64,000 nt of DNA from Dorea longicatena (GTDB taxonomy: Bacteria; Bacillota; Clostridia; Lachnospirales; Lachnospiraceae): the NCBI RefSeq assembly GCF_024168045.1, contig NZ_CP100126.1, forward strand, positions 2,063,501 through 2,127,500. Direction: 5' to 3'. A program made the position numbers and the translations under genes. Within the stretch, counting starts at the first letter, position 1; each line of letters opens with the position of its first letter. Positions 22,993 through 37,965 of this stretch are shown piece by piece. The notes below the pieces were generated by a model. That model did not search any database. It saw only the letters and a program-made list of their open reading frames with translations, and had not been told where the DNA came from.

Positions 22993-23119
22993 AAAATTAT
23001 TCAATTTTTGTATAAACTTTCTTATCTTTCCATCAAAAAAAATCTGTATCCCCTTACGCCCTTGGGTGGCGTAAGGGGTTTACAGATTTTTATTACTACT
23101 TATTCTCTACATACTGGAA
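22981..23119. repeat. 139 bp direct repeat, copy A
   Basis: Nearly identical to 34165-34304: the differences I see are one base in an A-run, two substitutions in the hairpin and one near the end. It contains a strong hairpin terminator and ends in TACTGGAA just before the stop codon of the following minus-strand gene. The two copies are in the same orientation and bracket about 11 kb of accessory genes. Confidence 0.9.
23041..23088. terminator. Bidirectional hairpin terminator inside repeat A
   Basis: AATCTGTA pairs with TACAGATT and CCCCTTACGCC with GGCGTAAGGGG around a 7-base loop, with A-runs before and T-runs after. It serves the DUF3784 gene on the minus strand. Confidence 0.85.
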
Positions 23120-23123
23120 GTTA

Positions 23124-23456
23124 TTACTTTCTGCATAGTGTGTTTCCTAAAATGATAATTACCACGACATCAACCAAAATAATCCCCAATGCAATATATA
23201 TAAAAAATGCAGGCAAAATATTTTCAAACAAGCTCATAGTTAATGCAAGAATTGCTATAATAGACATTCCAATTCCCATTGTTCTGCATAACTTCTTTTC
23301 ATCATATTTTTCCTTTTCTTCTCTTGAAGCTGTATTATATCCAGAAATGAACCAGCTTCCATGTCCAGAAAGTAAAATAATAGAAAGTACAGCAAATATC
23401 ACAAAGACAATCCACACTATCCAATCAGAGCCTGTTGCTAAATCTGCTAATTTCAT
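23124..23456 (-). CDS. DUF3784 family membrane protein
   Basis: 110 residues with three predicted helices (about 12-31, 62-80 and 86-106). The cytoplasmic motif GYNTASREEKEKYDEKKLCR is the hallmark of the DUF3784 family in Firmicutes. Function unknown; such proteins often sit in small accessory modules with HTH regulators or immunity-like membrane proteins. The stop lies directly against repeat A and a cassette-type motif follows its 5' side at 23480-23510. Confidence 0.78.
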   Translation of the reverse strand: MKLADLATGSDWIVWIVFVIFAVLSIILLSGHGSWFISGYNTASREEKEKYDEKKLCRTMGIGMSIIAILALTMSLFENILPAFFIYIALGIILVDVVVIIILGNTLCRK

Positions 23457-23479
23457 TTACATACTCCTCCTTACATTTC

Positions 23480-23510
23480 ATTTTCTTAATTCTATAAACT
23501 GGAATTTCAT
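23480..23510. repeat. Inter-gene motif, instance in front of the HTH gene tail
   Basis: Core ATTTTCTTAATTC, then TATAAACTGGAATTTCAT. The same motif recurs between short genes throughout 23-38 kb and sits between the 5' end of one gene and the 3' end of the next. Confidence 0.7.
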
Positions 23511-23544
23511 GAATTATCGCTTGCCTTAAACTTGCTGACACAAA

Positions 23545-24006
23545 TCATTTAGTTTCCAATCCACTCAAATAGAATTGATATAACAAATACACCAGAGAAA
23601 ATATACCAATTAACAAATACGCCACATTTTCTTTTAAAGATACTAGATACGATGAGAATACAACAAAGCCAATAACCTTGATTACCGCTTTAATTTTTCG
23701 ATTTTCAATCTTATCAATTTTACAACAGATAAAACGTACTCCAATAACCATAGGAGAAAATAAGATTGCAATCAAAATTAATATAATATTTTGCTTATTA
23801 AAAATAAGCTTTGATAACTGTTTTTTCTCATTATCCTTGATGTCCAAATACTGGTATAGCAATATAAGAGAGGCTTGGTCGGGAACACTTTTTCCCAATT
23901 CCCATTTCGAAATTGTCTGTCGCGTAACAAAGACAACATCAGCCAGTTGTTGTTGGGTTAAGCCCTTTTCAATTCTGGCTGATTTAATCAAATCTGATAT
24001 TTCCAT
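23545..24006 (-). CDS. XRE-type helix-turn-helix protein with C-terminal membrane helices
   Basis: 153 residues. The N-terminal ~65 residues are an XRE/Cro HTH (RIEKGLTQQQLADVVFVTRQ, then ISKWELGKSVPDQASLI), followed by two or three hydrophobic helices (NIILILIAILFSPMVIGVRFI, AVIKVIGFVVFSSYLVS, VAYLLIGIFSLVYLLYQF). Membrane-tethered XRE regulators are common in Firmicutes. It is 16 bp downstream of a small membrane protein gene and probably regulates that pair. Confidence 0.82.
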   Translation of the reverse strand: MEISDLIKSARIEKGLTQQQLADVVFVTRQTISKWELGKSVPDQASLILLYQYLDIKDNEKKQLSKLIFNKQNIILILIAILFSPMVIGVRFICCKIDKIENRKIKAVIKVIGFVVFSSYLVSLKENVAYLLIGIFSLVYLLYQFYLSGLETK

Positions 24007-24022
24007 AGTTGTACTCCATTTA

Positions 24023-24304
24023 TTATCTGTTTTTAATAGTGTCGCATAATGTTATTGCTAAACAAGCAACTATTACAAGAAAACTCATCTGATGTTTAAT
24101 AACAACGCAAAATAGGCTAATTGCCAATAACATACCGATAAAAGCAATCATACTATACTTGTATATCCTAGGATGTTTTTGGGATAATGCATTCGATATT
24201 TTTATAATTACTGCTATCATAGGAATAATTAATACCCCCATAACACCAAATAAAATTCCAGTTGCAACAACACTCATTTTGTTTTTCTTTAATTCCTTCA
24301 ACAT
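24023..24304 (-). CDS. Small membrane protein of unknown family
   Basis: 93 residues with three predicted helices (about 11-35, 48-65 and 71-87) and a lysine-rich N-terminus (MLKELKKNKM). A perfect AAAGGAGG site precedes the ATG. It is the first gene of a two-gene unit with the HTH/membrane protein. No family recognised; an accessory membrane partner or immunity-type role is possible but not shown. Confidence 0.7.
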   Translation of the reverse strand: MLKELKKNKMSVVATGILFGVMGVLIIPMIAVIIKISNALSQKHPRIYKYSMIAFIGMLLAISLFCVVIKHQMSFLVIVACLAITLCDTIKNR

Positions 24305-24421
24305 AAAAAGAACCTCCTTTGTTTTTGATACTTTGATATTAAAATAGAATTCTTTTTATGTCACGCAACGCTTGTGAAAACAGGCGCAACGGTAACGATT
24401 TTCATTCTGGTCATCGAAAGC

Positions 24422-24471
24422 AAAATTCCGATTTTTCGTTCTCTGCGACTTCCCAATAAACGGGAATTTTA
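24422..24471. repeat. Inter-gene motif with inverted ends
   Basis: Begins AAAATTCCGATTTTT and ends AAACGGGAATTTT, imperfect reverse complements, with the variable middle CGTTCTCTGCGACTTCCC. It includes the stop codon of the GyrI-like gene. The upstream 24305-24421 contains a GC-richer stretch with no gene I can see. Confidence 0.7.
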
Positions 24472-25101
24472 CGCTTTCTTAATTGGATGTCTAATTACAG
24501 TTTTCCATTTTTCTGGGGCAACCTTTCTTGCATCAGACATATAAATCTCGTGGTGCAACCTATCTTTGTTAATATCATTAACATATCCATTTTGTTCTAA
24601 ATAAGTATCCATAAGCGCAACAGTTGCTGGCTCATTATCAAAAGAACCTATATGCATAATTTGAACGCATAATCCCTCATCAATCGTAAGATACTCTGCT
24701 GACGAACAATCAAGTTTCTTCTTTTTCGTTGCTGTTTCTACCGCCCAGTCAAAATCAGCTTTAGAAATGAAATCAGGCAAACGGATAACAGAAATCCAGC
24801 TGAAAGCAGACTTATTTGTATAATCTACACTCTCGACATCATCCTGCCACCAAAAACCTTCCAATGGCGGAACAACATATTCAAAAAATCCTTCAATTTT
24901 ATAATCAGTCTTGTAACTCATTTTTAATGTGTATGCAACAGCATATAGAACACTGATTGCTTGTTGATATGCTCCGCCTTCTTCATTTGGATTGCCTTTT
25001 CCTCTAACTGCAATATAATTTGCCTTAGGTACATTTACAATCTCTGGTTTGTTCTTCGGCATATAGAATTCTTTATACTCTTTTTTAAAATCAAAAGCCA
25101 T
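24469..25101 (-). CDS. GyrI-like small-molecule-binding domain protein
   Basis: 210 residues. It matches the stand-alone GyrI/SHS2-like proteins of Firmicutes: MAFDFKKEYKEFYMPKNKPE, then VPKANYIAVRGKGNPNEEGG, YKIEGFFEYVVPPLEGFWW and LHHEIYMSDARKVAPEKWKT. Members bind or hydrolyse small aromatic or cationic compounds. A TTG is open four codons upstream at 25113, but GGAGG is 5 nt before ATG 25101. Both ends carry the inter-gene motif, as if the gene were one cassette. Confidence 0.85.
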   Translation of the reverse strand: MAFDFKKEYKEFYMPKNKPEIVNVPKANYIAVRGKGNPNEEGGAYQQAISVLYAVAYTLKMSYKTDYKIEGFFEYVVPPLEGFWWQDDVESVDYTNKSAFSWISVIRLPDFISKADFDWAVETATKKKKLDCSSAEYLTIDEGLCVQIMHIGSFDNEPATVALMDTYLEQNGYVNDINKDRLHHEIYMSDARKVAPEKWKTVIRHPIKKA

Positions 25102-25111
25102 AATAACCTCC

Positions 25112-25149
25112 AAAATTCCGATTTTCTCAATTCTCCAAACTTGAATTTA
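25112..25149. repeat. Inter-gene motif, best-formed instance
   Basis: AAAATTCCGATTTTCTCAAT, then TCTCCAAACTTGAATTTA. It begins about ten bases before the GyrI-like ATG on the minus strand and ends in the stop codon of the macrodomain gene, so the whole gap between the two genes is the motif. Confidence 0.75.
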
Positions 25150-26187
25150 TTTGGAAGATTTTATTATCCATTCATCAAGAAATTTCATTTGTTCATCCGT
25201 ATGAAACCAATGCTCTCCATTTTTCATAATAGAAAGTGTTGAATTAGTCCTCTGTACAAATTCAAATATCGTTCCATAAGCGGTAAGATTATCTTTTTCA
25301 CCATACAAAATGTGCGTTGGGATTTCCCATATAATAGGATTTTCTCTTGCATAGCAAAGATAATCCCATGAAAGAGTCTCTCCAAAGGTTGTCTGAATTT
25401 CTTTTTTCTCTTTGAGTTCATCCTCTGTAACATTTGCCCAAATCATCATAAACACATTAAAGATTACCTTTTTTATTCTGCTGTCTTTGTTAAGATACTG
25501 CTTTACAGTGTTCGTTGCAATCTCGGCAGCTCGTTGCCGTGGAAAACGGAATACACCTGTAGACAAACAACAGAATGCAATAGATTCCACACCAGTATCA
25601 GCTGCAAGCTTTAGGCACTCTGTGTAGCAGCTTGCCAACAGGTCTTCGTCTTCTTTTGTGACTTTCCATTGTATAATAGGTCCTACCGTATGAAGAATAT
25701 ATTTTGTCGGAAGATTGTATCCCGATGTTATCTTTGCTTTGCCGGTCTCTTCTTCATGCCCCTGCTTTGCCATAATTTCATGCATTTTCAGACGAAGTTC
25801 CATTCCAGCATAAGTATGAATAAAGTTATCAATACAGGCATGCATCGGTGAAAAACAACCAAGCATCTGTGAGTTACACGCATTCACGATCGCATCACAT
25901 TTCAAAGTGGTAATATCCCCCTGCCAGATATATAATCTCAAATCGGATTTTACAGGTGCAAGCGTGTCAACATCTGTGATTCCACGCTCTATATTTCTTT
26001 CTGTAAGATACTCATCCTGTATTTTCAAAAAATCATTACTGATTGGTCTTGGCGGTCTGACATTCATAAGTGAGCGGAGCAGATTTTCCTGCCCCTGCTT
26101 ATCCGTAGGAATACTCTGTCTGACAAATTTCATTTCTTCTTTTAAAAGATAATGGATCAGATATTCTCTTCGTTCATCCTGTGTCAT
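25147..26187 (-). CDS. Zinc macrodomain ADP-ribose hydrolase fused to an alpha/beta-hydrolase tail
   Basis: 346 residues. Residues 1-~245 are the SirTM-linked zinc macrodomain: GDITTLKCDAIVNACNSQM, zinc ligands Cys111/His116/Cys118 in GCFSPMHACIDN, HTVGP and LSTGVFRFP. It should remove the ADP-ribose that the neighbouring sirtuin adds. Free-standing relatives end near residue 265. Here, from about 247, the chain continues with what looks like the C-terminal part of an alpha/beta hydrolase, including THILYGEKDN (Asp299) and GEHWFH (His326) but no nucleophile serine. This looks like an in-frame deletion fusion. ATGA overlap with the sirtuin gene. Confidence 0.85.
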   Translation of the reverse strand: MTQDERREYLIHYLLKEEMKFVRQSIPTDKQGQENLLRSLMNVRPPRPISNDFLKIQDEYLTERNIERGITDVDTLAPVKSDLRLYIWQGDITTLKCDAIVNACNSQMLGCFSPMHACIDNFIHTYAGMELRLKMHEIMAKQGHEEETGKAKITSGYNLPTKYILHTVGPIIQWKVTKEDEDLLASCYTECLKLAADTGVESIAFCCLSTGVFRFPRQRAAEIATNTVKQYLNKDSRIKKVIFNVFMMIWANVTEDELKEKKEIQTTFGETLSWDYLCYARENPIIWEIPTHILYGEKDNLTAYGTIFEFVQRTNSTLSIMKNGEHWFHTDEQMKFLDEWIIKSSK

Positions 26188-27128
26188 AATACTTTCCCCC
26201 TTATATCCGTAATTGCCTTTGCCATATCACCGCCAATACCGATTGCACGCTTCCCGAAGCTTTCCGGCACTACCGCTTCGTCCATATTCAGACGTATCAG
26301 ACTATAAGATGAATTCTCCCGCACCATCTTTTCAAAAGGAAATCTTATAATTATCGGGGTGTTAAATCCAACTCCAAGTTCCAAAAGAACAACCTTTTTA
26401 TCCTTATTCTGTTCCATGAAGTCTGCATACCTGTCGGCTGCCTCATGCCACGCTTCATCTTCCACAAAATAATTATCACAACGCAGATTCATAGCCATAT
26501 TGCCGCCACACACCGGACATTTTGGTACAAGCTCTGATGGAATCAGGCAATCCTTTCTTGCTTCATCCATTTTATGAAACAGTTCTTCCGCATTATATGT
26601 CTTTGGATGACAGGCTTTCTGGCACTGGATTTTTCCATAGTCTCCCTGTGTTGCAAATATTCTTTGTTCATCAAATCCTGCCTTATAAAACTGATGATCC
26701 ACATTGGTTGTAAGCACAAAATATTCTTTGTTCTTTACAATATCATAAAGCTCTATATAAAGCGGCAATGCCGGAGGATCAAAGCGGTTCATCAATGCAT
26801 GTTTTGACCAGTATCCCCACTTTGCCTCCTCAGACGGATATGGATAAAATCCGGCTGCATACATATCTGTCATGTAGTGCCCACCGTATTTTTTTATAAA
26901 TTCTGCAAAATTGTCCGTAAACCTTTTGCCGCCATACTGGATTCCTGCCGCTGTCGATGCCCCGGCTCCTGCCCCGATTATAACACAGTCTGCATTTCTT
27001 ATATACTCTGCTGTTCTGTCAATCTGGTCTTCATATGCATCCTTTTGGAATACATAATCCCTTGCCGGAATACTGCATAAAAAATCCTGCCAGTTAATAT
27101 GCCCTTTTCTGATTTTCTTAAAGATCAT
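26184..27128 (-). CDS. SirTM-type sirtuin (protein ADP-ribosyltransferase)
   Basis: 314 residues. NAD site GAGAGAS (52-58), TTNVDHQF and the zinc cysteines CQKAC...CPVCG are present. In place of the deacetylase HG motif it has ATQGDY with glutamine, the mark of class M sirtuins (SirTM), which ADP-ribosylate proteins in Staphylococcus and Streptococcus. Those loci encode a macrodomain, a lipoylated GcvH-like target and a lipoate ligase. Here only the macrodomain is adjacent, and the upstream partners are flavin genes. Start 3 bp after the previous stop. Confidence 0.88.
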   Translation of the reverse strand: MIFKKIRKGHINWQDFLCSIPARDYVFQKDAYEDQIDRTAEYIRNADCVIIGAGAGASTAAGIQYGGKRFTDNFAEFIKKYGGHYMTDMYAAGFYPYPSEEAKWGYWSKHALMNRFDPPALPLYIELYDIVKNKEYFVLTTNVDHQFYKAGFDEQRIFATQGDYGKIQCQKACHPKTYNAEELFHKMDEARKDCLIPSELVPKCPVCGGNMAMNLRCDNYFVEDEAWHEAADRYADFMEQNKDKKVVLLELGVGFNTPIIIRFPFEKMVRENSSYSLIRLNMDEAVVPESFGKRAIGIGGDMAKAITDIRGKVL

Positions 27129-27131
27129 AGC

Positions 27132-27740
27132 TTAACCTCTTTTCTCAATACACTGCTTCGGACAAATTTCTGCACATCTTCCGCAATGCAGACAATGATT
27201 CTGATTGATTACAACAGAAACTGAAGATATATCAATGCATTTTTGCGGACATACCGAGTAACACAACTTACATCCGATACAGTCTTTCCCAACAAAATAC
27301 CCCGTCTGAACAACTTCTGCTTTTCCGATTGTTATAGTATCTCTCACAATATTTGATGGATTGCTGATATCAAAATACTCGCCCTGTGCCTCATACAGCT
27401 GAAACACTTCGATTGCGTCTTTCGTATCTCCCGGATAGATTTTCTTCATGTATGGATTTCTATCAAACATAATATCAAGATTCTTTTTCCCGATGTTCTT
27501 TATTTTTCCACGAAGAGAAACTGCAATTTTGTCTTTTGTTGCAGATATTGCCACATACTGCTGCTCCATTAACTGGTCATAAAATGCTTTTCCTTTTGCT
27601 GTAAGAAAATACACGCCTTCCTCATCATAGTACATCATATCTATAATCCTAGCCTGAGGATGTCCGTCCGAACCTATTGTGGCGACTGTTGTGGAGTGAA
27701 TATCGTCCACCAGAAGTTTAAGGTAATCCATTTTTGTCAT
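27132..27740 (-). CDS. Pyridoxamine-phosphate-oxidase-like flavin protein with two [4Fe-4S] motifs
   Basis: 202 residues. The N-terminal ~120 residues form a split-barrel FMN-binding fold (STTVATIGSDGHPQARIIDM, VYFLTAKGKAFYDQL). The C-terminus is a bacterial-ferredoxin domain with two cluster motifs, CIGCKLCYSVCPQKC and CLHCGRCAEICPKQC. This suggests electron transfer between clusters and a flavin. ATGA overlap with ribU couples it to riboflavin uptake under the FMN riboswitch. The substrate is unknown. Confidence 0.85.
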   Translation of the reverse strand: MTKMDYLKLLVDDIHSTTVATIGSDGHPQARIIDMMYYDEEGVYFLTAKGKAFYDQLMEQQYVAISATKDKIAVSLRGKIKNIGKKNLDIMFDRNPYMKKIYPGDTKDAIEVFQLYEAQGEYFDISNPSNIVRDTITIGKAEVVQTGYFVGKDCIGCKLCYSVCPQKCIDISSVSVVINQNHCLHCGRCAEICPKQCIEKRG

Positions 27741-28360
27741 TTCAAAGTCTCTCCTTTCAGTATCGGTGTAAGTTTTTTATATATCATCATGGTAATTGCT
27801 CCGATTACCAAGCCTTTTAAAATATTAAACGGCAATGCATTGAATAACACAACGTCCAACTTTGTCTCAATAAATGGCAGGAACTCACCAAAGGATGCAA
27901 TCAGCTGATCAAGCGGCATAAATGTTTCAAACAGTGGCAGAAGAATAAAATAATTCACAATCGCCGCTGCTATTCCCATAACAATACTTGATATAACACA
28001 TGCCCATATCGCCGTTTTCTTAGTCTTTTTATGTTTGTATATAAAACCAGCAGCCATTACATATGATGTACATATCAGGAAATTGGCAAGTTCACCAATT
28101 CCTCCTGTTGATGTTGACAGAAGCTGTAATATATTCTTTATCAATTCTATCATCACTCCTGTAACCGGTCCAAACGCAAACGCCCCAATCAGTGCAGGTA
28201 AATCTGACAGATCCATTCGTGCAAATGATGGACTCAAAGGAACCGGAAACTCTAAAAATGCCAACACATATGATATAGCTGCCAGTAGAGCTGTCATTGT
28301 TATCGTCCTTGTAGAAACTAAATTTTTTCTTATTTTAATAGTTGCTGTATTGTTACTCAT
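27737..28360 (-). CDS. ribU: Riboflavin ECF transporter, substrate-binding subunit RibU
   Basis: 207 residues with about six membrane helices. Hallmarks of the S component RibU are FPVPLSPSFARMDLSDLP and ALIGAFAFGPVTGV, followed by LLSTSTGGIGELANF. It binds riboflavin and works with the shared EcfA/A'/T module, not present here. The gene lies just behind an FMN riboswitch with terminator, so uptake is shut off when FMN is plentiful. It heads a four-gene coupled operon. Confidence 0.93.
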   Translation of the reverse strand: MSNNTATIKIRKNLVSTRTITMTALLAAISYVLAFLEFPVPLSPSFARMDLSDLPALIGAFAFGPVTGVMIELIKNILQLLSTSTGGIGELANFLICTSYVMAAGFIYKHKKTKKTAIWACVISSIVMGIAAAIVNYFILLPLFETFMPLDQLIASFGEFLPFIETKLDVVLFNALPFNILKGLVIGAITMMIYKKLTPILKGETLK

Positions 28361-28399
28361 AAATCTCCTTTTTGTGAGATATGTCTGAATTTAAAACAG

Positions 28400-28424
28400 C
28401 CCGCAGGACGGGATTTCCTGCGAG
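28400..28424 (-). terminator. Terminator of the FMN riboswitch
   Basis: On the minus strand CTCGCAGGA and TCCTGCGGG arms enclose AATCCCG, followed by CTGTTTTAAA. It lies between the aptamer and ribU (start 28360), the expected place for transcription attenuation. Confidence 0.85.
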
Positions 28425-28439
28425 ACGTGTTTTATCATA

Positions 28440-28545
28440 TCTTCTCTCATCCGGACTTTACCGTCGGTTATGGAATTGCACCATATCAGCTTTTGCTCGC
28501 AGACTATACTGCCGGTCAGGAATTACACCTTGCCCCGAAGACTGT
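28440..28545 (-). ncRNA. FMN riboswitch (RFN element)
   Basis: Read on the minus strand the conserved blocks appear in order: TCTTCGGGGCAAGGTG, AATTCCTGACCGGC, AGTCTGCGAGC, TGGTGCAATTCCA, ACCGACGGTAAAGTCC, GGATGAGAGAAGA. All core RFN positions I can recall are kept. It precedes ribU and controls the ribU/flavin-FeS/SirTM/macrodomain unit. Confidence 0.95.
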
Positions 28546-28570
28546 AATTTTTTCTGTTGATTACCTATTA

Positions 28571-28966
28571 TTAAAATTCATAAGGTGGATTTCCAGAGAA
28601 ATCTGCGATTAAACCATGAGGATTTTCAAGATAGAATACCTCAAAAATAGGATTATCTGCTGTCTGGTACTGTCCCTTAACGATAGGATTATTCATGCAT
28701 CCTTCCTTTACACTCTTGTTGTCCTCAAATACTGCTTTGCCATGAAGGCGGATCCATGCGTATTCAGGGGAAGATACTGATACTTCTACCTCAGGATTTG
28801 CTAACATATCCTTGTAAACATCCTTTGTGTTGTTAGTACAGAACCAAAGCTTTCCGTCCTGCTCAAAGCAGAACATGAATGGACGGCATTTTGCCTTTCC
28901 ATCTCTTCCGACTGTTGCTAAATACTGAACCGGATTTTTCTGTAAAAATTCTACTACTTTCTGCAT
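28571..28966 (-). CDS. Pyridoxamine 5'-phosphate oxidase family protein (FMN-binding split barrel)
   Basis: 131 residues. QKNPVQYLATVGRDGKAKCR, then PFMFCFEQDGKLWFCTNNTK and EVEVSVSSPEYAWIRLHG, is the compact one-domain split barrel that binds FMN or F420-like cofactors; in Firmicutes often a nitroreductase-like or flavin-reducing protein. A sigma-A promoter overlaps Rrf2-type operators upstream. The RFN element lies just behind its stop but serves the next gene. Regulation by the Rrf2 protein encoded upstream is inferred. Confidence 0.88.
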   Translation of the reverse strand: MQKVVEFLQKNPVQYLATVGRDGKAKCRPFMFCFEQDGKLWFCTNNTKDVYKDMLANPEVEVSVSSPEYAWIRLHGKAVFEDNKSVKEGCMNNPIVKGQYQTADNPIFEVFYLENPHGLIADFSGNPPYEF

Positions 28967-28989
28967 TTTAAATTACCTCCTTAATTTGT

Positions 28990-29008
28990 TGTAACACTGT
29001 TTGTTACA
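28990..29008. promoter_or_regulatory. Operator 1, TGTAA-N9-TTACA
   Basis: Inverted 5-base half-sites with a 9-base spacer, lying between the -10 box and the start codon of the split-barrel gene at 28571-28966. Confidence 0.65.
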
Positions 29009-29020
29009 TCTTATGTTTGT

Positions 29021-29049
29021 ACTATAGCATTTGTTTGATGTAATGTCAA
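29021..29049 (-). promoter_or_regulatory. Sigma-A promoter of the split-barrel gene
   Basis: On the minus strand TTGACA (29049-29044), a 17-base spacer, then TATAGT (29026-29021). Operator 2 covers the -35 box. Confidence 0.8.
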
Positions 29050-29057
29050 CAGTTACA
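29039..29057. promoter_or_regulatory. Operator 2, TGTAA-N9-TTACA, extended palindrome
   Basis: The arms extend to a perfect 10-base inverted repeat, TTTGATGTAA (29034-29043) against TTACATCAAA (29053-29062). It overlaps the -35 box, as expected for repression. Confidence 0.75.
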
Positions 29058-29067
29058 TCAAACTTTT

Positions 29068-29086
29068 TGTAACTTTTTTTGTTACA
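29068..29086. promoter_or_regulatory. Operator 3, TGTAA-N9-TTACA
   Basis: Third site with the same half-sites and spacing, 29 bp from operator 2, upstream of the promoter. The 29087-29177 remainder has no gene. Confidence 0.65.
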
Positions 29087-29177
29087 ACTTCCTTTAAAAG
29101 TTTTACATTGATTATGACAAACTAAAAGGCTCCGGAAATTGTGATGATATAATCACGCATCCGAAGCCTTCTGTATG

Positions 29178-29612
29178 CTACTCTTTCTCTGTATACATTG
29201 CAATATCTTTTTTCACATCAGCAAGTGTCATTTCTGAAAGCTTTTCCTCCATCGCCCTCTGTACCTCTAACAGCCTCTTATCAAGAACATGGTGAATATT
29301 CTTTCCTACCGGACATTTCTGATTGGGATTCTCATGAAAATGAAATAGTTCCTCATCTGGTGAACACTCCACTGCTTTATACACATCAAGGAATGTAATC
29401 TGCTCCAATGGTCTGGTAATTGTCACACCGCCTGTCCCTCTTGCAACTTCAATAAGACCAGCAGCCTTTAATTGTTGCAATATTTTACGGACAATCACCG
29501 GATTGGTTCCAATGCTTGCTGCCATAAAATCACTGGTCATCTTCTGATCTGAAAATGTATCTATACAGGCAAACATATGGATTGCCATTGTAAATCTGCT
29601 TGAAATCTGCAT
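29178..29612 (-). CDS. Rrf2 family transcriptional regulator
   Basis: 144 residues. The winged helix is RFTMAIHMFACIDTF, then MTSDFMAASIGTNPVIVRKI and LKAAGLIEVARGTGGVTIT. The loop that carries three cluster cysteines in IscR/NsrR has only Cys in VECSPDEE and QKCPVGKN here, so an Fe-S cluster is doubtful; YwnA-like redox or electrophile sensing is possible. Four TGTAA-N9-TTACA sites flank it, one upstream of its own start and three before the split-barrel gene. Confidence 0.9.
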   Translation of the reverse strand: MQISSRFTMAIHMFACIDTFSDQKMTSDFMAASIGTNPVIVRKILQQLKAAGLIEVARGTGGVTITRPLEQITFLDVYKAVECSPDEELFHFHENPNQKCPVGKNIHHVLDKRLLEVQRAMEEKLSEMTLADVKKDIAMYTEKE

Positions 29613-29656
29613 TATATAAACACCTCTCTTCGACAGTAATCATATCAAAAAACAGA

Positions 29657-29675
29657 TGTAATTTCAATGGTTACA
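29657..29675. promoter_or_regulatory. Operator 4, TGTAA-N9-TTACA, before the Rrf2 gene
   Basis: Same half-sites and spacer as the three sites at 28990-29086, 45 bp upstream of the Rrf2 ATG. Indicates autoregulation. Confidence 0.65.
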
Positions 29676-29721
29676 TTGTTGTTAAAAACCTAATATAAAT
29701 ATAATCAATAGTCTGCTTTAG

Positions 29722-29759
29722 AAAAACAGGAAGATACTTTACAAAATCTTCCTGTTTTT
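29722..29759. terminator. Bidirectional terminator after the truncated paralog
   Basis: AAAAACAGGAAGAT pairs with ATCTTCCTGTTTTT around a 10-base loop, nine bases from the stop of the 29769-29978 gene. Confidence 0.8.
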
Positions 29760-29768
29760 CTTTTTGTT

Positions 29769-29978
29769 TTAGTAATATCCTCGTTCTTCCCGCCAGTCTT
29801 TCACATTGAATGAAAATGTGCCAACTAATTCAATAAACCATTTATTATCTGTATCTTCATATAAATTAAAGATAATCGCTTTTATTTCACTACTCAATTC
29901 ATTCTTTAAAAGTAAATCTAACCATTCAAAGAAATCTTTGTTGTTTTTATTCGATTTTAACCTATCAAGCAATCCCAT
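29769..29978 (-). pseudogene. Truncated copy of the 36073-36465 small protein gene
   Basis: 69 codons. The first ~57 residues match the 130-residue protein at 36073-36465 almost exactly (MGLLDRLKSNKNNKDFFEWL, then ELVGTFSFN), including the ribosome site GGAGGTCGAA. After FSFN it turns into an unrelated tail (VKDWREERGYY) and stops. The conserved C-terminal half of the longer copy is lost. It may still be translated but is probably a remnant. Confidence 0.7.
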
Positions 29979-30000
29979 ACTTCGACCTCCGAAAACTTGA

Positions 30001-30288
30001 ATTGAGATTTCATATATTCCAAGGGATTTAATAATTGTTATATTTTATTATCAAATATCTCTCAAGCCCTTGAAAACACTAAGTTTATCGCAGGTGAGCT
30101 TTCCCTTATTGTTTCCCTTGTATTATATTGTCCCATGAGTATTTACGAACTCTGATAAGGGCAAAAACAAGGGAAAGATAATCCTCTAAAACAGTATAAC
30201 ATAAAATGAAAACGACATGGTGAACTGATTGAAATGCTTCTAATTTTTGTAACGAATGATTAATTGGACGATGAGGAGATATGATACG
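30001..30288. repeat. Long intergenic element, copy 2
   Basis: Aligns with 22301-22582. TTTCCCTTATTGTTTCCCTT (30100-30119) faces AAGGGCAAAAACAAGGGAAA about 40 bases later, giving two stacked 8-base stems. The 3' end carries the ribosome site for the DUF6061-like frame. Confidence 0.6.
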
Positions 30289-30525
30289 ATGAGAACAATA
30301 TTTGCAGAATACAATCCACAACGCAACAGCATTGATGTGTATACCAGTGCTGGCTATATGCTCCGTATTGACTGTTGGGAAGCTGAGAAGGATTTATAAC
30401 CCACACCCGGATCAGTCTGTTCATTAAACGCACTTGTCATTGATGAACCACTTGAATATGCAAAATTATATCTTGATGGAACGATGCAAATATGGGTGGA
30501 TGCAGAGGACACTCTTTATTTATAA
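30289..30525 (+). pseudogene. DUF6061-like small protein gene, one in-frame stop (copy 2)
   Basis: 79 codons, same length as copy 1. MRTIFAEYNPQRNSID, then VYTSAGYMLRIDCWEAEKDL, TAA at codon 37, then LNALVIDEPLEYAKLYLDG and TMQIWVDAED. The stop is at a different place from copy 1, so each copy was broken independently. A strong terminator follows. Confidence 0.65.
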
Positions 30526-30530
30526 TGTTA

Positions 30531-31242: not shown

Positions 31243-31284
31243 CTTTTGTCTCACTTTCTTTTTTATTTTAATAAGCAGCTATAT

Positions 31285-32496: not shown

Positions 32497-32611
32497 TTTG
32501 TCCTCCTCTAATAAATGTGATTATATCGTAAACTTTATATCTAGTCATTGCATAAAATCATATATTTATGGTACAATATAACAAATTTCATTATTTATGA
32601 GGAAATATAAC

Positions 32612-33508
32612 ATGGAGACTTTTAAGATAACTACAGATGAAACACTACGAGAAACCATCCAGCATGGCAACAATCGTTATCCATTTGCATACTATCCTGA
32701 TAATATTTGGAAATTTGACTTCCATCGCATTGACTGGCATTGGCATCATGAATTAGAATTTCTTTATACTGCTGAAGGTACTGCGCTCTGCCTTATAGGT
32801 ACAAGTAAAATAGAACTACATAAAGGTTGCGGCATATTTATCAATAGCGGTGTCCTGCATCGTTTTGAAGCACAAAGCAGTACATTTGCACCTAATATTG
32901 TTTTTTCGCCAACCCTATTAGCACCCGAAAACAGCCTCATTTACGAAAAATATATTCTTCCTGTGATAAGCTCGTCTGTTCCATATCAAGTTTTCAGTCC
33001 ATCCAACACATTTGGAAAACAGGTGCTACAACTTTTGTCGCAAATTTGTACTATTCAGGAAACTAAGCCGGATAATGAATTATGTACTATACAACTTTTA
33101 TTTCAGCTTTGGAACATATTGCAAAAAAATATGGACTGGACTTCTGATTCTAACAGTATTCATCGATTAAATCACAAACAAGCAAGATTACAAGCTATGA
33201 TGCAGTATATTCATGAGCACTACATGGAAGAGATTACATTGGAGACGATTGCGGCATCGGCATCTATCAGCAAAAGTGGAGCTTTACACATTTTTCAAAC
33301 TGGCATCCACTGTTCTCCGGTAGCATATCTAATTCAATACAGACTAGCACAGGCTGCTGAACAACTTTATATCACTCAAAAATCGGTTTCTTCCATTGCA
33401 GAAGAAACCGGATTTACAAGTTCCGGCTATTTCTGCCGGAAGTTTAGACAATATTATCATATGAGTCCAAATGAATACAGAAAGAAGAAAACAGAGGAAA
33501 TTTCTTAA
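32612..33508 (+). CDS. AraC family transcriptional regulator
   Basis: 298 residues. N-terminal cupin (RIDWHWHHELEFLYTAEGTA, GCGIFINSGVLHRFE) and C-terminal double HTH (ITLETIAASASISKSGALHIF; SVSSIAEETGFTSSGYFCRK). An ATG five codons upstream (32597) is out-competed by ATG 32612, which has AGGA 8 nt before it. It is divergent from the MFS/DUF1349 genes across a 100 bp gap that should hold both promoters. Probably the activator of that transport unit. Confidence 0.88.
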   Translation: METFKITTDETLRETIQHGNNRYPFAYYPDNIWKFDFHRIDWHWHHELEFLYTAEGTALCLIGTSKIELHKGCGIFINSGVLHRFEAQSSTFAPNIVFSPTLLAPENSLIYEKYILPVISSSVPYQVFSPSNTFGKQVLQLLSQICTIQETKPDNELCTIQLLFQLWNILQKNMDWTSDSNSIHRLNHKQARLQAMMQYIHEHYMEEITLETIAASASISKSGALHIFQTGIHCSPVAYLIQYRLAQAAEQLYITQKSVSSIAEETGFTSSGYFCRKFRQYYHMSPNEYRKKKTEEIS

Positions 33509-33640
33509 TTTCTACTTTCTGTAATCATACAATATTTGGAGATAATGTTGTTTTTCGTTATATTATCTGTATCAATTATGCTGACAATATACTATTTATG
33601 CATCATATTTACAATGTTCAAAAGATAAAAGTATTCTATA

Positions 33641-33687
33641 TGCAAATGGATAGATTTATATATTTTATCTATCTGTTTGCAATTTTA
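33641..33687 (+). terminator. Terminator after the AraC gene
   Basis: TGCAAATGGATAGAT pairs with ATCTATCTGTTTGCA with two mismatches, then TTTTAAT. Confidence 0.65.
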
Positions 33688-33771
33688 ATAATAACTCCTT
33701 GTATCCCGCCAGCCTTTTATATACCACCTGATTGCAACATATACCAGTTGCACGAATAATAAGAGAAATAG

Positions 33772-33864
33772 CAGATTACCACAATGAATGTCTATGCACA
33801 CTCTACAAAAAAAGCCAAGCGGGAATCCGCAAAGTTATTTGATAAAGTGGCAGGCAATGACTAA
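33772..33864 (+). pseudogene. Tyrosine recombinase (integrase) C-terminal remnant
   Basis: The frame QITTMNVYAHSTKKAKRESA, then KLFDKVAGND and stop, matches the extreme C-terminus of phage/ICE-type tyrosine integrases, where the catalytic tyrosine sits in TTMNVYAH. Upstream in frame a TAG blocks translation and no other integrase motif (R-H-x-x-R) is seen nearby. It is direct evidence that a mobile element once occupied this zone. Confidence 0.65.
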
Positions 33865-33870
33865 ATAAAA

Positions 33871-33921
33871 CTTTCCCTTATTTCCCTTACGATTATCTCA
33901 TAAGGGCAAAAATAAGGGAAA
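33871..33921. repeat. Third copy of the double-hairpin arms
   Basis: CTTTCCCTTATTTCCCTTA (33871-33889) faces TAAGGGCAAAAATAAGGGAA at 33901, the same arms as in the elements at 22301 and 30001. The following GGGCTGGAATGCCTGTAA also recalls them. No DUF6061-like frame follows. The rest of 33509-34002 outside the terminator and integrase remnant shows nothing else. Confidence 0.55.
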
Positions 33922-34002
33922 ATACATATCATTTCACTAATGAATGGGCTGGAATGCCTGTAAAATTGGGAAAGTTAGCCAGATATTTCGGCAAACTGGA
34001 AG

Positions 34003-34134
34003 TTATCTTTTCTTATAGGTAATTACGATTCCAATAATAGAAGCAATGAAAGCAAGTGGTGCTAATCTCACAAAGACAAATTCAAATCCATGTAATATGG
34101 TTCCTGCAACTGCACACTCTTTGAAACCACAAAA
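34003..34134 (-). pseudogene. C-terminal fragment of a small membrane protein gene
   Basis: About 43 codons: GFKECAVAGTILHGFEFVFV, then RLAPLAFIASIIGIVITYKK and R-stop. One amphipathic and one hydrophobic helix with a positive tail. No start is available; a stop lies immediately upstream. The inter-gene motif CAAACTGGAAGTTA precedes its stop, as in the intact genes of this zone. Family not recognised. Confidence 0.5.
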
Positions 34135-34164
34135 TTACGTATGGAATGTAGTTTGAACGAATAA

Positions 34165-34304
34165 TATTTTCCATAAAAAATTATTCAATTTTTGTATAAA
34201 CTTTCTTATCTTTCCATCAAAAAAAAATCTGTATCCCCTTACGCTCTTGGGTGGCGTAAGGGATTTACAGATTTTTATTACTACTTATTCTCTACATACT
34301 GGAA
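34165..34304. repeat. 139 bp direct repeat, copy B
   Basis: Second copy of the 22981-23119 repeat, same orientation, with the same hairpin terminator (around 34232-34281). It ends at the stop of the SdpI-family gene, as copy A ends at the stop of the DUF3784 gene. Confidence 0.9.
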
Positions 34305-34305
34305 T

Positions 34306-34683
34306 TTATCGTCTTGTTCCATTCTTATCAAAATTCTTTTTTAATGCTATTTCTGTTGGGAGAATAGACCCAATTAAAGGAATAAGTTGAACACCACAGA
34401 TAATTCCTCCTATACTCCCAACACAATCTTCATTTTTTCCAATCACTAAAAGCATGAATATTACTGTTATCGGCAACATAACCATTCCACAGACATACCA
34501 GACTTTACCACAATATTTATGAGCAAATTCCCATGTGTCTTTGTTCTTCATAGACATCGAAGTCCGATATCCAAATACTGAATTTATTTCCTTTGGAGCC
34601 TTTTTCATAAAATATCTTCCAAAACCAATCATCGTAAATGGAAGAAGCAAATCCATAATCAACATAAAAATCCAAAACCCCAT
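34306..34683 (-). CDS. SdpI family membrane protein
   Basis: 125 residues with three or four membrane helices. The central cytoplasmic motif FGYRTSMSMKNKDTWEFAH is typical of the SdpI/YhfL-related family, in which SdpI gives immunity to the SdpC toxin in Bacillus. Good AGGAGG before the ATG. It shares the downstream repeat with the DUF3784 gene 11 kb away. Immunity function here is inferred. Confidence 0.75.
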   Translation of the reverse strand: MGFWIFMLIMDLLLPFTMIGFGRYFMKKAPKEINSVFGYRTSMSMKNKDTWEFAHKYCGKVWYVCGMVMLPITVIFMLLVIGKNEDCVGSIGGIICGVQLIPLIGSILPTEIALKKNFDKNGTRR

Positions 34684-34715
34684 TGTAAACCTCCTTTACT
34701 ACAACTCCCGATTTG

Positions 34716-34850
34716 TCTTTATCATCATACTACCACACCCAAGAACTTTTGTACATTTTTCACGTAAAAAACCCCTCACACCATAATTGATGTAAGGGGT
34801 TTTCTATATAAGCTAATTAACGTTCTATGTTAGTCACCTACAATGTACTA
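34716..34850. repeat. ~135 bp direct repeat, copy C (duplicate of the ppdK 3' flank)
   Basis: Matches 38469-38605 with two extra A's in one run there and one substitution. It includes the hairpin terminator CCCCT...AGGGG and ends with the bases of the ppdK stop codon, followed by AGCTGCCTGT, which also resembles ppdK coding sequence. The remaining 34851-35003 is AT-rich with no gene visible. Confidence 0.9.
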
Positions 34851-35003
34851 ATAGCTGCCTGTTGGATGTATTAAAAAAAGTTTCTCTATTTAACTTCAGA
34901 CAACGTTAATCTTTTACAAACTAAATTTGTTTTTATTAAAAGCAATGATATTCAAAAAATCCTATAGCCCCTATGCGCAAAATATTAAATAGATACTGGA
35001 ATT

Positions 35004-35165
35004 TTATTTAGAAACATTTTCCGCTGGCTCTCCGTCCGCATTAATCGCTCCTTCAAGCCATGCCATAATACCAAAGTTACAAAATGGACAAGTTATCGCC
35101 TCCTTATATACTTCATTCTCACAACAAGGGCATATAACATATTCTTCACTTTTTATATCTTGCAT
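35004..35165 (-). CDS. Small zinc-ribbon protein
   Basis: 53 residues. Two CxxC knuckles, CPCC at about 14-17 and CPFC at about 29-32, followed by an acidic tail (INADGEPAENVSK). AAGGAG lies ten bases before the ATG, inside the end of the upstream gene whose stop is 4 bp away, so it is translated together with it. Likely a structural zinc-binding partner. The stop codon overlaps the inter-gene motif TACTGGAATTTTA. Confidence 0.72.
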   Translation of the reverse strand: MQDIKSEEYVICPCCENEVYKEAITCPFCNFGIMAWLEGAINADGEPAENVSK

Positions 35166-35169
35166 AAGC

Positions 35170-35685
35170 TTATTCTCCTTTATCCAATTTTTGATTACTA
35201 ATAATTTTTAATGTTTTAAAACTGCTACTTGGATTAACCTTCGCTGCATATAATATTGGCGTTTCCTCTTTATCCATAGTATATACTTCTTCGACACAAG
35301 GAAACTGCACATAATCTCTTAATGTCTGTTTTACAATTTCAATTTTTTCACCTTTTAATATCCCCTCGTCAAAAACTGCTGTTATACGCTCATATTTATA
35401 ATTTATAGAAATAAAGATGTAATAATCAAAACATGCTGTTCTATAATCTTCCGGCAATGCATAGAAACTCACCCATTCTAATTTGTTATTTTGCAAATTT
35501 TTGAATAATACTTTACCTCTTTTATATTTTCTCACTTTCCCCGCAGTCTTATCTGTTATACTATACGACCAATGTGTAATTTCCTTATCAAACATATGAA
35601 ATATTCTTTCCACAGAGTCAATTAACTTTTCATCTTCTATTGATTTGTGAATTTTACCATTATATGAAACTGTAAATGTATTCAT
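35170..35685 (-). CDS. Uncharacterised soluble protein, possible immunity protein
   Basis: 171 residues, no signal or membrane segment, mixed alpha/beta composition (MNTFTVSYNGKIHKS, ITHWSYSITDKTAGKVRKYK, then a C-terminal TLKIISNQKLDKGE). I do not recognise the family. It sits between a DUF2185 gene (12 bp) and a small zinc-ribbon gene (4 bp) in an array of immunity-type genes, which suggests a similar role. Confidence 0.68.
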   Translation of the reverse strand: MNTFTVSYNGKIHKSIEDEKLIDSVERIFHMFDKEITHWSYSITDKTAGKVRKYKRGKVLFKNLQNNKLEWVSFYALPEDYRTACFDYYIFISINYKYERITAVFDEGILKGEKIEIVKQTLRDYVQFPCVEEVYTMDKEETPILYAAKVNPSSSFKTLKIISNQKLDKGE

Positions 35686-35696
35686 CTTTTAATCAC

Positions 35697-35999
35697 CTAA
35701 TCATCATCTATCTTATCTCTTGTTGCACAATATCCACAAGGCATCTCTGCCACTTTTTCAATTGAAGGATCTAAGTCAAACACTTCTCCTAATGCAACTA
35801 CTTTCGCATCTTCCACTCCATGTGATCCACCACATAAGAATTGCCACATACCATCATCTTCATCATGCGATACAAATAAGATTGGACTTTCCCCATTCAC
35901 TATATGATTACAAATAATACATGCAGTATCGCGTGTATTCACAAATGGAAACTTATTATTAACCCGAATTTTCCCCTGTAGCAGTTGTTTCAAATTCAT
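35697..35999 (-). CDS. DUF2185 (Imm33-type) protein, short form
   Basis: 100 residues. DTACIICNHIVNGESPILFV, then DDGMWQFLCGGSHG and EMPCGYCATRD define DUF2185, listed among immunity families of polymorphic toxin systems. The frame is open upstream to 36116, but ATG 35999 has GGGGGG nine bases before it and starts like its paralog. The whole gene and its 5' flank are nearly identical to the first ~320 bp of the 36975-37910 gene, so it is a duplicated N-terminal domain that ends in DDD just where the longer copy goes on. Confidence 0.8.
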   Translation of the reverse strand: MNLKQLLQGKIRVNNKFPFVNTRDTACIICNHIVNGESPILFVSHDEDDGMWQFLCGGSHGVEDAKVVALGEVFDLDPSIEKVAEMPCGYCATRDKIDDD

Positions 36000-36020
36000 T
36001 ACTTTTTTCCCCCCACAACT

Positions 36021-36055
36021 TTCCGATTTTCTTAATTCTGCAAATCGGGATTTTA
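36021..36055. repeat. Inter-gene motif
   Basis: TTCCGATTTTCTTAATTCTG, then CAAATCGGGATTTTA, between the 5' end of the DUF2185 gene and the 3' end of the next gene. Confidence 0.75.
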
Positions 36056-36072
36056 TTGCTAGCAAGCAGACC

Positions 36073-36465
36073 TTATCTTTCATATAAAATATGCAAGTCT
36101 CCGTCAACAAATCCAATGCCTATTGCTTGATATTCTTTTAATTTTCCAGCATATTTTCCAAAAGAAAGGTATTCATTCACTAAATCAATGCAAAATGTTT
36201 CCATTGATTTCCAATCACTTTCACGCTCTATCACGAAAGTTTTATCTCTTGTAGTAAATACTTCATCACAAGCCCAATCGTCATTATCCGTATTGAATGA
36301 AAATGTGCCTACTAATTCAATAGACCATTTATTATTCATATCTTCATATAAATTAAAGTTAATCGCTTTTATTTCACTATCCAATTCATTCTTTAAAAGC
36401 AAATCTAACCATTCAAAGAAATCTTTGTTGTTTTTATTCGATTTTAATCTATCAAGTAATCCCAT
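36073..36465 (-). CDS. Uncharacterised immunity-like protein (full-length copy)
   Basis: 130 residues, soluble, acidic. It starts MGLLDRLKSNKNNKDFFEWL and ends AIGIGFVDGDLHILYER. The general look (helix, beta strands with ELVGTFSFN, conserved DWACDEVF) resembles small immunity proteins of polymorphic toxins, but I do not know the family. A truncated copy lies 6 kb away at 29769-29978. GGAGGTCGAA precedes the ATG in both. Confidence 0.7.
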   Translation of the reverse strand: MGLLDRLKSNKNNKDFFEWLDLLLKNELDSEIKAINFNLYEDMNNKWSIELVGTFSFNTDNDDWACDEVFTTRDKTFVIERESDWKSMETFCIDLVNEYLSFGKYAGKLKEYQAIGIGFVDGDLHILYER

Positions 36466-36511
36466 ATTTCGACCTCCGAATCCTTGAATTTATCTTGCAA
36501 TTAGAAACCGT

Positions 36512-36946
36512 TTATCTTGTATATGGTTCGGTGTCTTTTCCATCATATACAAATACTTTTATATCCGTATTTTCATTAACCTCAGCATGGATACCTACCG
36601 TGTATTCTTTATCTGTAACATTCTGAAAAGAATAGCAACCGCCAGCAGGAATACTGTCAGATACAAGTTCCTGTTTTCCTTCACAGAGCAGATGTACAGT
36701 AATGTCAAAATCGTTTCTGTTCTGGACTGTCAACACGCCTGTATTAGACAAAATTTTTGCGTCAGAATATGTAATTACATAGGAATCAGGCGTTGACTTT
36801 TCCGCACAGACCACAGAACACTCCCACTGTGTCTCTGCTTTTGCCTTTCGATAGGCTTCCGAAGACTTATATGTTGAAAATATAATCATTGTACTTATAG
36901 CAAGAATGCCAATGATGACAAATGCTATTGTTACTTTTTTCTTCAC
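36512..36946 (-). CDS. Membrane-anchored extracytoplasmic protein
   Basis: 144 residues. An N-terminal helix (about 4-23, VTIAFVIIGILAISTMIIFS) anchors a ~115-residue outward-facing beta-rich domain (VITYSDAKILSNTGVLTVQN, then ...AGGCYSFQNV). Family not recognised. Preceded by a run typical of this array, with no own terminator seen. Confidence 0.68.
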   Translation of the reverse strand: MKKKVTIAFVIIGILAISTMIIFSTYKSSEAYRKAKAETQWECSVVCAEKSTPDSYVITYSDAKILSNTGVLTVQNRNDFDITVHLLCEGKQELVSDSIPAGGCYSFQNVTDKEYTVGIHAEVNENTDIKVFVYDGKDTEPYTR

Positions 36947-36974
36947 AACATCACCTCAACACACAAATTCCTAT

Positions 36975-37910
36975 TTACATAACCGATTTTCTATTATAAT
37001 TTGTTACATCACTGCCAATTTTTTCGTATAATTCTCTAACACTAATCTGCTTATTCCGAATTGCTTTTAATTCATTATCAGTTACTCCAATAAGCTCAAC
37101 AAAACTTACTCTTCCATTTGGTGTATTTATTTCATGAAATTTATCATCCGGTACTGTAATAAATCCAGTTATATTGGATTTTCCACTACAATCAATCCCT
37201 TCTGTCTGACCAGTGTATAAGTATTCATAATTATTAAAAATTTCACCTTTGGTAAAAGTAATTCTCGCGATGGATTGTAAAATTCCACATATACATTTTA
37301 TTTCATTTTCTTCATTTTCATAATTATCTTTTTTTAGCTTAAAGGTAAATTCCATTCCGTAGCCACTTACATCCTTTATGTCAGATTCTTTTTCATATAA
37401 TTCTGATAATCCATAAGTTATAAAATGCCAATAATCGCCACCATCATAAACGCTTATACCACGAAGAGGATCATTACCTCCCAATTCCCAACTTATTAAA
37501 ATACCATAATGTTTGGGATTCTTTTGATCTCGATATATCTCATCACACAATTCAGTTATAGCATCCCATCCGTTTGCTTTATTATCATTGTTTTCATTCT
37601 TTACTACCCAGTCACTATCCACCTTATCTCTTGTTGCACAATATCCACACGGCATCTCTGCCACTTTTCCAATTGAAGGATCTAAGTCAAACACTTCTCC
37701 TAATGCAACTACTTTCGCATCTTCCATTCCATGTGATCCACCACATAAGAACTGCCATATACCATCATCCCCATCGTGTGATACAAATAAAATCGGCTTT
37801 TCTCCATTCAAAATATGATTACAAATAATACATGCCGTATCGCGTGTCTCCGCAAATGGGAACTTATTATTAACCCGAATTTTCCCCTGCAGCAGTTGTT
37901 TCAAATTCAT
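36975..37910 (-). CDS. DUF2185-SUFU fusion protein
   Basis: 311 residues from ATG 37910 (the frame is open to 37982, but MNLKQLLQGK is the start shared with its short paralog and has a G-rich ribosome site). Residues 1-~95 are DUF2185; residues ~115-290 are a suppressor-of-fused (SUFU) domain with HYGILISWELGGNDPLRGIS and DYWHFITYGLSELYEK. Both domains belong to immunity or toxin-neutralising families, so the protein may neutralise more than one toxin. No toxin gene is nearby. Confidence 0.8.
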   Translation of the reverse strand: MNLKQLLQGKIRVNNKFPFAETRDTACIICNHILNGEKPILFVSHDGDDGIWQFLCGGSHGMEDAKVVALGEVFDLDPSIGKVAEMPCGYCATRDKVDSDWVVKNENNDNKANGWDAITELCDEIYRDQKNPKHYGILISWELGGNDPLRGISVYDGGDYWHFITYGLSELYEKESDIKDVSGYGMEFTFKLKKDNYENEENEIKCICGILQSIARITFTKGEIFNNYEYLYTGQTEGIDCSGKSNITGFITVPDDKFHEINTPNGRVSFVELIGVTDNELKAIRNKQISVRELYEKIGSDVTNYNRKSVM

Positions 37911-37930
37911 TACTTTTTTCCTCCCATAAC

Positions 37931-37965
37931 TTTCAATTTTCTTGATTCTGCAAACTGGAATTTCA
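37931..37965. repeat. Inter-gene motif
   Basis: TTTCAATTTTCTTGATTCTG, then CAAACTGGAATTTCAT, between the DUF2185-SUFU gene and the next gene. Confidence 0.75.

Follow-up and report, generated by a model that had tools for sequence, protein, structure and literature searches.

A candidate gene-cassette recombination site in a gene array of Dorea longicatena and its probable link to a mobilizable-element tyrosine integrase

The array and its intergenic motif

The stretch of DNA considered here, hereafter the window, comprises 64,000 nucleotides of Dorea longicatena (contig NZ_CP100126.1, positions 2,063,501 to 2,127,500), and our subject is a gene array within it, at about 22,980-38,450, whose members are separated by a recurring motif. 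The array lies between a dikinase gene and a response-regulator gene and includes the remnants of at least one mobile element. The array genes that bear motif copies are on the minus strand, where a gene end leads into AAATTCCAGTTTGCAGAATTAAGAAAATCGGAATTT, whole or in part, before a ribosome-binding site and the start codon of the following gene. Read on that strand, the motif is AAATTC-NAGTTTGN-AGAATTRA-GAAAATCG-GAATTT, placed between the stop codon of one gene and the ribosome-binding site of the next. A first-pass annotation, made from the letters alone, had put the motif at the 3' side of genes; this is accurate for one gene of each pair, but the motif also carries or precedes the ribosome-binding site of the following gene.

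Each of the eleven positions named in that annotation carries the motif or part of it, as judged by profile scan and inspection: four are full copies, one is a long variant and six are half or degenerate copies. The profile seed included the four full window copies that the profile then found. Among the six, the left half occurs by itself, as AAYTTCCAGTWTG or a close relative, at 23121, 34004, 34306 and 35004, and runs into TTCGGAGG at about 30003 and 36490. The sequence TGCAAACTGGAATTT has 14 matches in the whole window at up to three mismatches, six of them outside the array or on the opposite strand, whereas 100 shuffles gave 3.9 on average and never more than 11. In a wider set, 37 of 49 full sites fall at the stop of an open reading frame, compared with 21% of random positions; the corresponding random control for start positions was lax (54%), and the stop-codon figure alone was used.

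Two inverted repeats are nested in the motif. The outer one, AAATTCC/GGAATTT, is the imperfect repeat already seen at the outer ends in the first pass, and to it an inner repeat, AATTC/GAATT, has to be added, which brackets the main exchange point discussed below. Each full motif contains a pair of oppositely oriented cores, with the central GAATT common to both. No Rfam family was found at the motif at gathering thresholds, the sole Rfam match being a flavin mononucleotide (FMN) riboswitch elsewhere in the window.

Cassette edges and their changing neighbours

Five stretches of the window recur in other genera at 91-99% identity, and in each case both edges lie at the motif or a degenerate copy of it. 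These are the cassettes with the DUF3784 gene (91-98%, five loci, with block edges within 8 bases of those in the window), the GyrI-like gene (99.4%), the SdpI-family gene (97-99%, three loci: L107, L021 from Blautia, and L118), the 144-residue protein gene (97.4%) and the 156-residue protein gene (99.4%). The last of these also matches L027 (Faecalitalea) over 401 bp at 99.3%, with the tail edge alone in common, and a sixth window block has a single common edge, at 30,003 (98.5% in G001). The neighbours of the recurring cassettes differ between loci, with the exception of L095, which equals the window over 23,545-25,450 at 99.6% and crosses several sites. Overall, 18 of 59 matching-block ends lie near motif-like sites (random mean 7.3, P 0.0002), and of the other 41 some lie within the decayed element, some at matches that are diverged or partial, and some elsewhere. 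Whether the units are single genes, as had been suggested, has a mixed answer: a half site recurs within about 55 nt past the stop of the first gene at 10 of 21 hand-picked sites (nine different genes), but some units hold several genes.

The most informative unit is a cassette of about 2,126 bp from outside the window, which encodes MarR, DUF5131 and radical SAM proteins and is complete at 13 loci with 94-99% identity. Twelve copies measure 2,125-2,127 bp and one 1,817 bp. Seven of the loci belong to Suipraeoptans, 'Lactobacillus' rogosae, Butyribacter, Falcatimonas, Blautia schinkii, Faecalibacterium prausnitzii and Eubacterium sp. AF22-9, and the other six to six further genomes. Left junctions number 17 (two neighbours alike) and right junctions 13, each of them distinct. 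At the left end, AAATTCNNGTTTGN or something close to it remains with the host, and the cassette begins with AGAATTG; the left box plus GTTTG stands on the host side at all 17 junctions, with small variants. The right end is AACTTC in ten copies, AAATTC in two and AACTTT in one, and the bases beyond it, usually NNGTTTG, come from the new neighbour. Taken together, the left and right junctions point to NNGTTTGN, with AATTC on one side and GAATT on the other, as the place of exchange.

The nearest genome compared, G001, offers a view of the locus itself. Its dikinase gene and downstream flank are 98.5% identical to window positions 38456-39200, and the response-regulator flank is 98% identical over 104 bases, while the interval between these common flanks is 16,153 bp in the window and 2,532 bp in G001. 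Both have the DUF3784 cassette and one with head TTCGGAGGTCGAAG, at different places, and G001 has in addition a small helix-turn-helix gene to which nothing in the window array corresponds. Of the gene turnover at the motif that the first-pass annotation had proposed to test between strains, the comparison shows a difference in cassette content between relatives. Two Lachnospira eligens plasmid records have one and the same set of array genes and hence gave no useful strain comparison.

The site is specific and uncommon, is concentrated in Lachnospiraceae and has some copies outside that family. A sequence-only model built from 17 copies gave 60 matches in 30 of 299 Lachnospiraceae genomes (E <= 0.001) and its reversed counterpart none in the same 299, counts that are lower bounds since the genome searches scored just 17-22 first-look candidates per genome, and these two 22. 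Of 398 genomes drawn across the phylum, two were matched at 1e-4, the nearest relative being one of the two. A pattern search allowing three mismatches at most hit 5 of 61 relatives (backward control 0), an exact pattern 15 stretches of named genome records (among them Butyribacter, Blautia, Falcatimonas, Coprococcus catus, Gemmiger, Faecalibacterium and Faecalitalea), and a shorter one two viral contigs. The proposal that single genes were added at the motif is favoured by the shared cassettes that end at it beside differing neighbours, by the difference between relatives and by the empty reversed search.

A mobilizable-element family and the proposed mechanism

The only trace of an integrase in the array is the one noticed at the outset, and it is genuine: positions 33,778-33,864 encode the last 29 residues of a tyrosine integrase (tblastn to residues 404-432 of the L055 integrase, 76% identity). 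It is followed by AAGGGAAA repeats and then by the half site at 33,990-34,004, and the remnant DNA (33778..33991) matches many loci at about 69-96%. No integrase in the array is intact, and intact relatives stand beside such sites elsewhere. One of them, L055 from an Agathobacter rectalis plasmid, has an integrase (PF00589), two helix-turn-helix genes, of which one is an excisionase by TIGR01764, and a relaxase gene annotated MobA/MobL (NF041496, 166.7 bits, under the cut-off of 200). This element is an integrative and mobilizable element (IME): it has integrase, excisionase and relaxase, and no transfer apparatus appears among the 19 annotated L055 genes shown, the ends of that copy not being fully delimited. 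The best solved-structure match of the L055 integrase is an Int protein, 6emy/6emz (3e-12 over 50 residues), which we take to be the Int of Tn1549. Integrases of the Tn1549/Tn916 type likewise comprise a tyrosine integrase with a small excisionase; the match covers only the C-terminal part, however, and the element here is mobilizable (MobA/MobL) and has a preferred core.

This core resembles the half site of the motif and lies at a nearly fixed distance from the integrase gene. Among 18 integrase ends (distinct in the first 100 bases, 67-100% identity), the loose pattern is found 114-136 nt past the integrase stop in 17, versus 744 of 5,000 random stretches (15%), and the strict pattern in 10, versus 76 of 5,000 (1.5%); in L131, the sole miss for the loose pattern, the core lies slightly further on. 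In a FastTree phylogeny of the 18 integrases, the classes A to E, which were assigned by hand from the cores, have support values of 0.995 (A), 1.00 (B), 1.00 (D) and 0.67 (C), E being a single sequence, and the integrase groups agree with core orientation and overlap. The class C core, CGATTTG, is the one that the motif has at its opposite end. An element end adjoins the MarR cassette in L011, L013 and L101, and the same 30 bases of left flank stand before an element at one locus (L057) and before the MarR cassette at another (L111), so elements and cassettes appear to use common targets. The integrase end is also commoner in site-bearing genomes (19 of 30 versus 37 of 269, P 1e-8, Fisher), in a test that takes the 299 genomes of both searches as one sample, as the outputs suggest; without one genome matched solely by the half site, P is 7e-9. 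The integrase-end query had three matches in a plasmid collection and none in a phage collection.

From these comparisons we consider it probable that the motif is where the cassettes of a gene-cassette system recombine, a system likely run by the tyrosine integrase of a mobilizable element. A cassette would consist of one gene, sometimes a few, with the right-hand portion of the site (AGAATTRAGAAAATCGGAATTT) at its start and the left box, AAATTC or AACTTC, at its closing stop codon, and would be flanked by two sites of the same orientation. We infer that a tyrosine integrase exchanging strands in the short overlap NNGTTTGN could cut the cassette out as a circle, which would then enter another copy of the site. 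The mover of cassettes most likely comes from the element family described above, with integrase, excisionase and MobA/MobL relaxase, which inserts at the same sites, and cassettes may travel from one bacterium to another through such elements, which would act in trans or take a neighbouring cassette along upon excision. As few bases separate the site from the start codon in many cassettes, these probably rely on an upstream promoter. It is tempting to go further and to speculate, on a point where our own judgement is evenly balanced, that this would be an integron analogue of independent origin in gut Lachnospiraceae, with a common cassette pool whose sites serve as attB for a mobilizable-element family. 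Each site would then offer a choice of two exchange points, with overlaps CAGTTTG and CGATTTG, at which different integrase groups act, and mobilization and shuffling would take place on the same site.

Several points weigh against the cassette mechanism. The exchange is read from sequence comparison, in loci that were gathered for carrying the motif or the integrase end. A search among the fetched loci yielded no undisturbed insertion site of the MarR cassette and no fully empty site, and loci matching both flanks of the cassette were the same place fetched twice or had only element ends in common. A circular cassette junction had no match in one scan, of viral contigs. The head of the SdpI cassette (34703) is joined to five different neighbours, in four of the five contexts at AATCGG or a near variant with no left box beside it, which a model with one overlap does not explain; perhaps the exchange took place there at the second core. 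The 30 genomes matched by the model include at least six that had supplied its copies (G002, G008, G011, G028, G030 and G074), and the empty reversed search, which by itself shows little, is only as good as the filter for first-look candidates. On the side of the integrase, the strict core is lacking in 8 of 18 ends, and in 11 of the 30 genomes with the site a DNA-level search for the integrase end came up empty. In addition, the association between site and integrase end is slightly circular, as the query holds a half site, and part of it would be expected if elements merely insert at cassette sites.

Perhaps no free cassette circles exist at all. An element could insert beside a gene, excise via a farther site and carry the gene away, leaving minimal cis-mobilizable elements by accretion only. 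Elements directly adjoin cassettes in L011, L013, L015, L101 and the window, and for integrative and conjugative elements and IMEs, decayed copies with attL and attR retained have been described to accumulate in tandem by accretion (in the part of PMC5704250 consulted). However, most of the 17 left junctions of the MarR cassette have no known element end adjacent to them, and arrays of several cassettes in one orientation would take many rounds; we regard accretion by itself as possible but rather unlikely. The system can also be described as one of single-gene cis-mobilizable elements (CIMEs), which the same source, in the part consulted, defines as elements that have lost their integration and transfer genes; it reports both att-flanked units without an integrase of their own and insertion of elements in the att sites of others (PMC5704250). 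The MarR cassette itself has att-like sites at both ends and no integrase inside. Unlike CIMEs, the units here are of one to few genes, and one of them recurs at 13 loci with a nearly exact single length.

The cassette system is not a classical integron, but works like one, or like the dif modules of Acinetobacter. As in integrons, the cassettes are mostly single accessory genes of mixed function, co-oriented in an array with sites at gene ends, by the stop codon, and L011 and L101 even show the order integrase, site, cassette. The integrase of the element, however, is not of the IntI type (TIGR02249, 54.5 bits against a cut-off of 265; NF011946, 32.6 against 435; the comparison covered the element integrase), and it is part of an element with a relaxase gene. 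The attC-like hairpin that the first-pass annotation had proposed to look for was rejected. When six sequences were folded as single strands, one was more stable than 197 of 200 shuffles (z -2.5), but the other five gave near-shuffled values (z -1.4 to +0.5), and the outer repeat had no compensatory change in any of 10 pairs (81.2% of cells paired versus 82.1% in shuffles). Complete integrons are, moreover, nearly absent from Firmicutes, and the authors of IntegronFinder list one complete integron and a few clusters of attC sites there (as given in the part of PMC9024848 consulted). That the array is a classical integron, or consists of clustered attC sites lacking an integrase, is in our view barely conceivable. 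Acinetobacter dif modules (XerCD/pdif) also hold adaptive genes between short recombination sites and are thought to be moved between replicons by a tyrosine recombinase system encoded elsewhere (from the part of PMC6449649 consulted). They differ in that pdif sites are Xer sites, whereas the core of the window type resembles the ends of mobilizable elements, and in that the cassettes here are of one orientation and hosted by Lachnospiraceae and some other gut Firmicutes.

Two further accounts fit parts of the data. If the cassettes were passengers of a DDE transposon with its transposase in trans, the outer inverted repeat would be the terminal repeat, and cassette ends are indeed imperfect inverted repeats. 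Yet the left box with GTTTG on the host side at every left junction of the MarR cassette implies site-specific insertion, and the core is common to tyrosine-integrase elements, making such transposition very improbable; target duplications were looked for by eye only. The motif also precedes ribosome-binding sites, as a common regulatory motif or a hot spot of homologous recombination might, but the exchanges are confined to about 36 bp between different flanks and a mobile element, too, ends in a similar core, at a spacing from its integrase that hardly varies, which leaves this idea with hardly any credibility.

A cassette system tied to mobilizable elements would, if real, offer common bacteria of the human gut a concrete way to gain single genes. 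Accessory genes are shared among gut Firmicutes although complete integrons are nearly absent there (PMC9024848, in the part consulted). The contents of arrays would become readable automatically from genomes, and the origin of a cassette system from ordinary attachment sites would become testable. We found no account of this cassette system in the open-licence PMC literature, of which our coverage was partial.

Features of the window array and minor observations

Table 1. Features of the array and its borders, from the dikinase side to the response-regulator side (window coordinates)
Feature	Position	Strand	Remarks
Leading flank behind pyruvate phosphate dikinase gene, array start	38455..38605	-	Dikinase by Pfam; second copy 34702-34850
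Cassette, 156-residue protein gene 37973-38443	37954..38455	-	No Pfam family; 502 bp at 99.4% in L097, whole cassette
Full motif copy (putative recombination site)	37928..37963	-	Profile 34.6 bits
Cassette, SUFU-domain gene 36975-37910	36975..37927	-	PF05076, 1.9e-28
Cassette, 144-residue protein gene 36512-36946	36483..36976	-	No Pfam family; 495 bp at 97.4% in L058
Cassette, gene 36073-36465, head TTCGGAGGTCGAA	36054..36482	-	Related copy in G001 L115, 93%
Full motif copy	36020..36053	-	Profile 32.1 bits
Unit, genes 35697-35999 and 35170-35685, half site at 35004 as end	34993..36019	-	
Cassette, SdpI-family gene 34306-34683, tail half site 34306, short-form head 34703	34291..34714	-	PF13630
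Site left half joined to element integrase-side end (CCGAAATAT...)	33990..34004	-	Same junction type in L011, L056
Mobilizable-element remnant: last 29 integrase codons, AAGGGAAA repeats, integrase-side end	33778..33991	+	
Element far end (CCTTGGAATATATGAAATCTCAATTC) joined to cassette head	29993..30024	-	Seven different right neighbours among loci, window included
Multi-gene unit: macro domain, SIR2-family, Fe-S/PNPOx, further genes	25147..29806	-	Pfam for three genes
Full motif copy	25113..25148	-	Profile 39.9 bits
Cassette, GyrI-like gene 24469-25101	24464..25150	-	PF06445; 687 bp at 99.4% in Falcatimonas L020/L094, other neighbours
Long motif variant	24423..24468	-	Profile only 7.9 bits; same variant in L095
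Full motif copy	23477..23507	-	Profile 25.9 bits
Cassette, DUF3784 gene 23124-23456	23113..23507	-	PF12650; 91-98% blocks in L106, L113, L115 (G001), L116, L117
Trailing flank	22980..23124	-	Second copy 34164-34309; repeat families D6 and D9
Second element far end, type ending GGTGAAATCTCAATCGG, beside response-regulator gene	22303..22552	-	

The features of the array are collected in Table 1. The gene beside the second far end is presumably a response regulator, to judge from its fold. In L058, a mobilizable element follows the tail of the 144-residue protein cassette; the gene at 36073-36465 has a shorter relative at 29769-29978 (91% repeat); and the multi-gene unit shares two blocks with Blautia L021 at 94-95%. 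Pfam domains among the cassette proteins scanned, several of which had no Pfam family, are MarR, DUF5131, radical SAM, SdpI, SUFU, GyrI-like, macro, SIR2, DUF3784, CAAX protease, chloramphenicol-phosphotransferase-like AAA, alpha/beta hydrolase, SnoaL-like, methyltransferase, peptidase S51, GNAT and pyrophosphatase domains. The scan gave no family of integrases or relaxases.

Some observations concern the sites and arrays at other loci. A sequence starting TATGCGACAAACGTTTGAACACTTTTTGAACACC, followed by a tRNA-like TTCGATTCCGGTCTGCGGCA, is a recurrent right neighbour of the site (L010:10022, L061:9188, L113, L117) and may be the end of another integrative element. In L056 (Eubacterium eligens plasmid NC_012780, 1-12886), small co-oriented genes stand beside an integrase-end remnant with mostly degenerate half sites, a run that looks like an old array.

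Within the window, DUF1349, MFS transporter and AraC-type genes lie at 30643-33508, between the far end and the integrase end of the element. The FMN riboswitch (28435-28546, minus strand, 109 bits) is upstream of gene 27737-28360, between the two blocks shared with Blautia L021. Positions 35695-35994 and 37606-37905 form a 91% repeat, the first 100 codons of the SUFU-domain gene being a copy of the separate small gene 35697-35999, and a domain seems to have been fused or split between the two. Finally, the leading flank (34702-34850, 38455-38605) and the trailing flank (22980-23124, 34164-34309) are each present in two copies, as if the locus had been duplicated or assembled from two arrays, and G001 likewise has two copies of the leading flank.

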